DNA of 64,000 bases, from positions 630,217 to 694,216 of the forward strand of contig NZ_HG315691.1 in assembly GCF_000455345.1 (NCBI RefSeq). The letters are read 5' to 3'. The notes beneath the pieces were generated by a model. It searched no databases, was not told the origin of the DNA, and saw nothing but the letters and a program-made list of their open reading frames with translations. The position numbers were made by a program, and so were the translations under genes. Below are positions 42,073-43,633 of this stretch, in pieces (within the stretch, counting starts at the first letter, position 1; every line of letters starts with the position of its first letter). Source of the DNA: Halopiger goleimassiliensis (lineage in GTDB: Archaea > Halobacteriota > Halobacteria > Halobacteriales > Natrialbaceae).

Positions 42073-42636
42073 TCAGCTCGATTCCGAGGAGCCAGGGAAG
42101 CGGTGGTACTGCAGGCCCTGGTGTTTCATCTCGTTGTGGCGCTCCTCCAAGAACGAGTAGACCGCGCCGTGTGGCGCACCGTCCAGCAACATCTCGGCGG
42201 CGCTGCGAACCGCGTCGACCTGTTCGGGCGTGCCGATGATGCCGAGCGTCGAGCCGTAGATGACGACGTCCGCGCCGGTGAGTTCCTCCATGAGTTCGCG
42301 CGTGCGGCCGCCCTCGCCGATGAGCCGTCCCTTCTTGCGCTTCATGTCGTTCTTGTTGCGCGAGGCGGCGTCGATGTCGACGACGTCGAACAGCATCATA
42401 TCGTCCTCGAGCAGGCGCAGAGCGGCCTCCGGCGGGAACCCCCGACCGATCGCACGGACGATCTCCGGCCCCTTGAGCCCGCGCACGGGATCGCCGACGG
42501 TCTCGACGGCGACGGAGCCGTTCTCGGAATCGATGTCGAGTCGGACCTCTGCCTCGGCCTCGATCTCGCGCATCGTCTCGCCACCCTCGCCGATGAGAAC
42601 GCCAATACGGTCCTGCGGAATCTTCACGTGCTGCAT
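42073..42636 (-). CDS. KH-domain RNA-binding protein (Pno1/Dim2-like)
   Basis: 187 residues with two KH domains: [21 protein letters not shown] (18-base type GxxG is GEGG) and [22 protein letters not shown], both carrying the GEGG RNA-binding loop. This is the archaeal homologue of eukaryotic Pno1/Dim2, a 40S ribosomal subunit maturation factor that works with Rio kinases and the rRNA 3' end nuclease. In many archaea it neighbours rio1; here rio1 is present but about 2.5 kb away with two other genes between. ATG 42636 follows a TATA-like CCTTAACC about 29 bases upstream; the longer open frame extends into the repeat region. Confidence 0.93.
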
Positions 42637-42727: not shown

Positions 42728-43003
42728 GAACACCACGAAAGCCCCTGCCGACGTCGACGGCTGCGACTCGCTGCGCCCCTCACTTCGTTCGTTGCTTGCG
42801 TCGTCTCGCTCGTCGACGTCGGCAGCCCCTTTCATTCCCACCCCGCGGTGGCCAGACCGACCAGCCGACACGGGTGGGAATGAAAGGGGCTGGCGCTATC
42901 CGGGAAGACGGACGACGTAAGCACTGGAGAGGCGAGCGCAGCGAGCCTCGAAGCGCGCAACGAGTCCACCGACCGGATAGCGCCAGGGGCTTTCGTGGTG
43001 TTC
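42728..43003. repeat. Nested inverted repeats forming a perfect four-way junction
   Basis: Outer arms of 20 bp (42728-42747 and 42984-43003) enclose three hairpins that abut each other and the outer stem with no spare bases: arms 42747-42758/42812-42823 (12 bp, extendable to 13), 42824-42843/42872-42891 (20 bp) and 42892-42903/42973-42984 (12 bp). All arms are perfect; the first and last share one base with the outer stem. The loops are about 53, 28 and 69 bases. The element fills the gap between the phosphoesterase stop and the KH-gene promoter. No open frame or transposase is present. Confidence 0.9.
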
Positions 43004-43054: not shown

Positions 43055-43558
43055 TCACTCGAGTACGGATCGGAATCGCACGGATTCCGATAGCGTATCG
43101 ACGATGGCGACGGTGCGGTCGTCGTCGGAGCGCGCGAGGACGTGGGCACCGGGGTTGATCACCGTCGTCCGACCCTCCTCTGCGAGTTCGCGCTGGTGGT
43201 GGTGGCCGTAGCAGACGAAGTCGTAGGTCTCGCCGGCGGCGATAGCCTCGACCTCCTCCTCGTGCTCGCCGTGGAGGACGGCGAAGGAGAGGCCGTCGAA
43301 CTCGAGACTGGCGAAGCGGCCGTGAAGTTCGCTCTCGCCGCCCAACGCGTCGAAGGCCGCCTGGAGGTTCGCGACGTCGCCGTCGTTGTTCCCGAGGACG
43401 CCGTGGAGTTCGAAGTCGCCGAAGTAGTCGATCATCAAGGGGGCGACGAAATCGCCGCAGTGGACGACGACCTCGACCCCTTCCTCCTCGAAGATCTCGA
43501 CGGCGCGTTCGATGGCGTCGACGTTGTCGTGCGTGTCGGAGACGATCCCGATGTTCAT
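43055..43558 (-). CDS. Calcineurin-like phosphoesterase (YfcE/MJ0936 type)
   Basis: 167-residue metallophosphoesterase. Metal motifs: D-x-H (SDTHDN), GDxV (HCGDFV), GNND (LGNNDGD), H in AVLHGEHE, and G-H-x-H (YGHHHQR). The complete set of binuclear metal ligands is there. The family hydrolyses phosphodiesters such as bis-pNPP; the cellular substrate is unknown. ATG 43558 starts MNIGIVSDTHD at the domain edge. Same strand as trpS (76 bases upstream), so it may be its downstream partner in one transcript. Confidence 0.92.
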   Translation of the reverse strand: MNIGIVSDTHDNVDAIERAVEIFEEEGVEVVVHCGDFVAPLMIDYFGDFELHGVLGNNDGDVANLQAAFDALGGESELHGRFASLEFDGLSFAVLHGEHEEEVEAIAAGETYDFVCYGHHHQRELAEEGRTTVINPGAHVLARSDDDRTVAIVDTLSESVRFRSVLE

Positions 43559-43633
43559 ACGCGATGGGGCGACTGCGAGCACCAAATGCGTTCGGGAGGC
43601 CGACAGGTTTCCGGTCGGCCCGAGCCGATCGGT

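Follow-up and report, generated by a model that had tools for sequence, protein, structure and literature searches.

A dispersed intergenic repeat of Halobacteriales, arranged in Halopiger goleimassiliensis as an inverted doublet with a four-way junction fold

REPINs and BIMEs are doublets of REP sequences mobilised by RAYT Y1 transposases (PMC3116915). In Haloquadratum walsbyi the repeats SMR-A and SMR-B, which are 80-110 bp long, have inverted termini unrelated to any known transposon, make no target duplication and occur in tens of copies with no known mobiliser, and SMR-A copies insert in the palindromes of PATE/IS605 elements (PMC3119063). PATEs and the ends of IS200-IS605 elements contain palindromes that possibly act as folded single strands, also with no target duplication, and PATEs have no inverted termini (PMC3119063). 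The SMR and PATE elements of Haloquadratum and the REPINs appear to be the closest described systems to a 276-bp element (positions 42728-43003) that we studied in a 64,000-nucleotide stretch of the H. goleimassiliensis genome (which we refer to as the window).

Like REPINs, the element is extragenic, occurs in many copies, folds on one strand, forms inverted doublets with a spacer and is presumably non-autonomous (compared with PMC3116915). Unlike REPINs, it has a unit of ~120 nt with a multi-part arm and copy-specific basal stems, and the H. goleimassiliensis genome gave no match in a search for RAYT and other Y1/IS200-type transposases (Y1_Tnp, PF01797), a search whose positive controls gave matches in 5 of 14 genomes; IS200/RAYT mobilisation was rejected as the mechanism in this genome. 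REP hairpins are a few tens of nucleotides in length. A short REP hairpin with a conserved 5' tetranucleotide was not found, and AACACCAC in the upstream flank is confined to Natrialbaceae and does not extend across families. The REPIN seems the nearest working likeness, yet we do not class the element as one, given the lack of a RAYT and the far larger unit. With SMRs it shares its haloarchaeal host, inverted ends, tens of copies and no visible target duplication, and it differs from them in being 276 bp long with internal arms, though a minimal armless form (L014) is close to SMR length at ~100 bp; both the likeness and the difference are drawn from the published SMR description. With MITEs it shares its intergenic position, its terminal inverted repeats (AACACCACGAAAGCCCC / GGGGCTTTCGTGGTGTT in the window element, ~20 bp in a long-form subfamily) and a presumed non-autonomy, whereas no target duplication was seen, no parent transposon came up among the plasmid matches listed for the long form, and the stems are rewritten rather than decaying. 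It resembles PATEs and IS605 ends in being palindromic, a possible folded single strand and free of visible target duplication, but it has terminal inverted repeats and its genome has no Y1_Tnp gene. Integron attC sites are hairpins folded from one strand, whose stems vary and whose recognition features are conserved; unlike them, the haloarchaeal element is dispersed and not found in cassette arrays, and no attC core-site motifs were seen in it by eye.

Structure of the window element and its half-unit

The element is flanked by a minus-strand phosphoesterase gene (43055-43585) and a minus-strand KH gene (start codon at 42636), which agrees with the placement given by an earlier, sequence-only reading of the window. 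That reading described four perfect inverted arm pairs meeting in a four-way junction; inspection of the sequence found all four pairs in place, but the boundaries it drew counted bases 42747 and 42984 each in two arms. In the cleanest parse, the helices are an 18 bp outer stem (plus-strand GAACACCACGAAAGCCCC at 42728-42745, paired with GGGGCTTTCGTGGTGTTC at 42986-43003), a 14 bp left-arm helix (42746-42759/42811-42824), a 19 bp central stem (plus-strand GCCCCTTTCATTCCCACCC at 42825-42843, paired with GGGTGGGAATGAAAGGGGC at 42872-42890) and a 13 bp right-arm helix (42891-42903/42973-42985), with zero unpaired bases at the junction, which could branch-migrate by ~2 bp because all arms begin with TG and finish with CA. 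Folded as DNA, the four-way junction is the minimum-energy structure at -102.7 kcal/mol (z -9.1; 200 shuffles, mean -64.3, sd 4.2), and it is again the minimum-energy structure as RNA (-177.4, z -12.3), values which bear out the earlier judgement that the arrangement is not a product of chance. Given z-scores of -9 to -12 and the dozens of copies that were assembled separately from many different genomes, we dismiss chance or an assembly artefact as an explanation.

The conserved object is not the four-way junction but a half-unit of ~120 nt. On one strand it reads GGGAnTGAAAGGGGC, an arm and GGGGCTTTC, and the arm consists of a copy-specific, fully paired basal stem, a near-invariant internal-loop core, a further short helix and an apical hairpin that varies. 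The core (GACGnAAGnAC ... GCGCAGCGAG) is near-invariant across the order, and both AAAGGGGC and GGGGCTTTC are invariant in an alignment of 57 sequences (A1), from which a half-unit covariance model (R1) was built. By eye the core contains tandem G.A, but its geometry does not fit a kink-turn or a hammerhead, and a likeness to these was rejected. Scanning the window with R1 returned exactly two matches, the left half-unit on the minus strand (42729-42844, 118 bits, E 1.3e-24) and the right half-unit on the plus strand (42871-43002, 120 bits, E 4.5e-25), each with its 5' end at a 26-bp spacer (42845-42870) and its 3' end outward; sequence, fold and covariance model all describe the whole of 42728-43003 as an inverted doublet. 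The spacer is partly palindromic and, in relatives, is inverted between the orthologous copies L053 and L057. As the two half-units stand head to head, each reading outward on its own strand, together they give the perfect four-way junction.

The left arm (42746-42824, minus strand) has a variable 14-bp basal stem (TGCCGACGTCGACG/CGTCGACGTCGGCA) around a conserved core, whose parts were placed by alignment A1 at 42765-42775 (3' part on the functional minus strand, plus-strand GACTCGCTGCG) and 42793-42805 (5' part, plus-strand TGCTTGCGTCGTC). In the right arm (42891-42985, plus strand) a 13-bp basal stem (TGGCGCTATCCGG/CCGGATAGCGCCA) encloses an apical hairpin and the conserved core, aligned in A1 as GACGACGTAAGCAC (42911-42924) and GCGCGCAACGAGTCC (42953-42967), and the invariant AAAGGGGC lies in the right strand of the central stem. 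Each arm is bracketed by GGGGC direct repeats, read on the plus strand as CCCC (42742-42745, part of a minus-strand GGGGC, as supported by armless relatives) and GCCCC (42825-42829) at the outer and inner feet of the left arm, and as GGGGC at the inner (42886-42890) and outer (42986-42990) feet of the right arm. Small perfect hairpins with 4-nt loops, for example GAGAGAGCTTCGCTCTCTC, accumulate within arms (L162, L175, L218).

The doublet raises the question of whether the junction itself is selected, along the lines of one alternative in the sequence-only reading; the element would then act as a DNA duplex from which a cruciform or four-way junction is extruded, for example at a nucleoid, replication or transcription-blocking site. 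The perfection of the junction, its stability as DNA and the orientation of adjacent half-units speak for such a site: all 16 of 16 pairs of half-units lying no more than 700 bp apart in four genomes are divergent (one in four expected, p 2e-10). However, copies in other haloarchaeal families are mostly single half-units, which are unable to form four arms. In these families the half-unit often has on its 5' side a second domain, conserved and folded (GGCGCGCG ... CGCGAGGG ... CGGCTGGGGAGG). In L268-L297 (G002-G004), L105-L107 and L123 this domain (GGCGCGCG..., CGCGAGGGATGAG..., CGGCTGGGGAGG) is usually found immediately 5' of the half-unit, and it also occurs with no half-unit in L097, L098 and L119; the whole is probably either a composite element of larger size or another repeat family.

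Distribution, gain and loss of copies

The window element is one copy of a dispersed, non-coding, intergenic repeat family found throughout Halobacteriales. The H. goleimassiliensis genome contains 33 matches by DNA search and 30 by R1, 17 of the latter with E <1e-18. Within the host's taxonomic family, the DNA query matched 102 of 125 genomes and R1 matched 111, with copy numbers ranging from 0 to 46 (G003 has 46 matches, G004 41 and G002 32); in the order, the DNA query matched 197 of 293 genomes. In a sample of 393 genomes of the phylum, 59 were matched, all of them in Halobacteriales, and none outside that order. Named carriers include Haloterrigena, Natronorubrum, Natrialba, Natronococcus, Haladaptatus, Halorussus and Halomarina. 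Twenty-one of 23 plasmid matches fall outside any annotated feature and are hence intergenic. No match occurred among the phage or viral contigs searched, and a phage origin was ruled out. An Rfam 15 scan of five copies with flanks at E<=1 gave nothing above the gathering score, only sub-threshold microRNA matches, and a literature search by topic and by exact core sequence strings returned, among the papers it covered, no description of the family, which is seemingly undescribed.

Individual sites are occupied in some genomes and empty in others. Upstream of the KH gene a copy is present in H. goleimassiliensis, in G107 (L130, a contig that is that of Natronorubrum texcoconense, L102), in G003 and in G004, and the site is empty in G002 and the other relatives read; at three more sites G003 has a copy where one or both of its close relatives have none. 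No target-site duplication was seen outside the termini on inspection, or in the filled and empty pairs, whose junctions are not base-resolved. H. goleimassiliensis also carries a long-form subfamily of seven copies (L009, L010, L017, L025, L179, L181, L205) with units up to 97% alike. Six of the seven (L010, L017, L025, L179, L181, L205) have inverted termini ATTTCGGGTGTGAATTGATC placed 560-700 bp apart, within five mismatches, and L009 has by eye a variant of them; these termini are absent from the window element, and the compact form to which it belongs showed no recent, identical copies. When plasmids were searched with the long form, no copy spanned 80% of it, and no transposase lay under the matches listed. 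Many Haloarcula plasmids contain intergenic stretches with ~80% identity to the arm type at the right of the long form (L025:1805-1920), so that a further arm type is widespread.

In haloarchaeal plasmids a half-unit lies ~500 bp upstream of a gene for a ~290-aa OB-fold, RPA-like ssDNA-binding protein (L146:3001-4480, L147:3001-4457, L148, L149, L150, L152, L153, L157), an association present in 8 of the 14 plasmid regions examined. It represents one orthologous plasmid locus and we therefore do not take it as a mechanism. The stretch between the half-unit and the OB-fold gene is conserved in four families and very rich in hairpins, making it a candidate second structured region.

Pairing, strand and exchange of arms

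Pairing in the basal stem is maintained across sequences that differ from copy to copy. Among 185 distinct half-units, with 144 different 11-mer stem sequences, the eleven outer arm pairs are standard in 96.2% of cases vs. 54.9% when the 3' sides are shuffled, and two-sided changes occur in 19 of the 28 pairs of the consensus fold, so that the suggestion of the sequence-only reading that structure is kept is upheld; with neighbouring half-units all divergent, neither a random arrangement of the repeats nor an absence of covariation was found. The mismatches that do occur are asymmetric between strands: on the half-unit strand the stems contain 51 G.U and 13 A.C mismatches (185 half-units), and the core column pairs 49/98 and 32/113 contain 17 and 13 G.U cells, respectively, with zero A.C. 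Since counts of covariation are inflated by the exchange of arms, and one copy is not independent of another, the strand result was also taken over grouped stems; when similar stems are grouped, 40 G.U remain vs. 11 A.C (p 6e-5). The excess of G.U over A.C means that the folded form of one strand matters, as RNA or ssDNA, since a duplex with both strands folding would not give this asymmetry; G.U tolerance fits RNA and ssDNA alike, and the data do not separate them. Strand-asymmetric mismatches are unexpected where both strands extrude, and with single half-units prevailing outside the host's taxonomic family we consider selection on a double-stranded junction improbable.

Stem sequences can be replaced wholesale whilst the surrounding DNA hardly changes. 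For example, in Haloterrigena the arms of L165 and L175 are unrelated between flanks with 98% identity over 803 bp. In another genus, the 3' flanks of L309 and L293 are 99% identical over 550 bp and their basal stems differ (GAGGTGCTCGG/CCGAGCACCTC and GAGCGTCTCGA/TCGAGACGCTC). Orthologous sites of this kind show that the exchange of entire arms accounts for much of the apparent covariation. Further orthologues have the interior or the central loop inverted (L043/L044, L053/L057), and arms are precisely absent in L050 and L053. The GGGGC repeats around arms and the precisely armless relatives fit one suggestion of the sequence-only reading, insertion at exact sites.

Upstream of cbiG, six genera have kept an element that is antisense to the cbiG operon (L209-L238). 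Several arm types alternate among its orthologues, which also include a clean compensatory pair change (L211 vs. L233), armless forms (L212, L215) and partial remnants (L210, L223, L229), and some genomes have no spacer at all there (L224, L226, L227, L235); the locus is a natural series for the study of arm exchange.

Stems rewritten far faster than their flanks, and mini-hairpins building up in arms, would also result if neutral errors of foldback replication, in which the template is switched at quasi-palindromes, were combined with gene conversion between copies that keeps the stems perfect, with neither a function nor a dedicated mobiliser. The unpaired cores (AAAGGGGC, GACGnAAGnAC and GCGCAGCGAG) are nevertheless near-invariant across the order, which templated stem repair cannot explain; this conservation weakens a purely neutral origin, to which we assign very little probability. 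A folded shape that is actively kept whilst its stem sequences are swapped suggests that a cell factor recognises the folded strand.

Transcription signals and candidate explanations

The main rival to a mobile repeat is a multi-copy family of structured non-coding RNAs, in which each half-unit would be transcribed, alone or as part of a transcript, and the window would hold two back-to-back copies. Strand-specific G.U pairs, internal loops conserved throughout the order and the cbiG-upstream copies, kept in six genera with one clean compensatory change, are all expected of such an RNA. In one genus, moreover, 28 of the 37 copies scored (28:9) have their functional strand turned toward the start of the following gene, and about a third of the copies of this genus have at their 5' border a palindrome, GTTTACAATA-N-TTGTAAAC (L268, L270, L272, L277, L279, L282, L287, L290, L294, L296), which from its sequence could be an operator or promoter. 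Against this, no A+T-rich position indicating a promoter at a fixed distance was found around 28-30 aligned copies, and there is no terminator T-run at a fixed distance (T-runs in 2 of 30 copies). Orientation to genes, from heuristic gene calls around the copies, is unbiased (11:12 in H. goleimassiliensis and 40:33 in the rest of the taxonomic family), Rfam holds no relative, and copies appear and disappear between close species. We regard an RNA gene family as unlikely, though deserving of more weight than the junction or the neutral origin. A regulatory leader of the neighbouring gene was ruled out by the unbiased orientation, except in the one genus.

The lack of a transcript signature and the unbiased orientation lead us to favour a REPIN-like repeat over a non-coding RNA, a double-stranded junction or neutral foldback, and we put at about even the chance that the element is a non-autonomous repeat of this kind, recognised as a folded single strand by a putative factor. 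The element would then be mobile, and a trans-acting recombinase, transposase or other factor would read the folded strand, most likely ssDNA exposed during replication or transfer. By recombining with one another at the inverted arms and at the conserved GGGGC/AAAG flanks, the many copies may reshuffle arms and invert interiors, and such recombination could keep the stems perfectly paired despite their change in sequence. Several observations count against a mobile repeat: no target duplication, linked mobiliser or identical recent compact copy was seen, the H. goleimassiliensis genome has no Y1/IS200-type transposase, and old copies kept in place across six genera at cbiG are unusual for a purely selfish repeat.

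A broader and more speculative possibility, which we think rather doubtful, is that the half-unit and the second domain belong to a haloarchaea-wide class of multi-domain folded-strand elements, with 1 to ~46 per genome, read by archaeal machinery other than IS200/RAYT. This machinery, or the recombination it promotes, would rewrite the stems and preserve the structure and the cores, and the class would be a structured nucleic acid of a new type, mobile or functional.

If the REPIN-like reading is true, covariation statistics on dispersed repeats call for caution, as they can mirror the exchange of arms among copies. A structured element that is uncatalogued would be present tens of times in most haloarchaeal genomes, its pairing kept and its stem sequence replaced within the time taken for a 1-2% change in the flanks, and the family would be a test case for structure kept by cassette exchange vs. 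stepwise compensatory mutation. It would also predict that archaea lacking IS200-type transposases possess a factor by which a folded strand is read.
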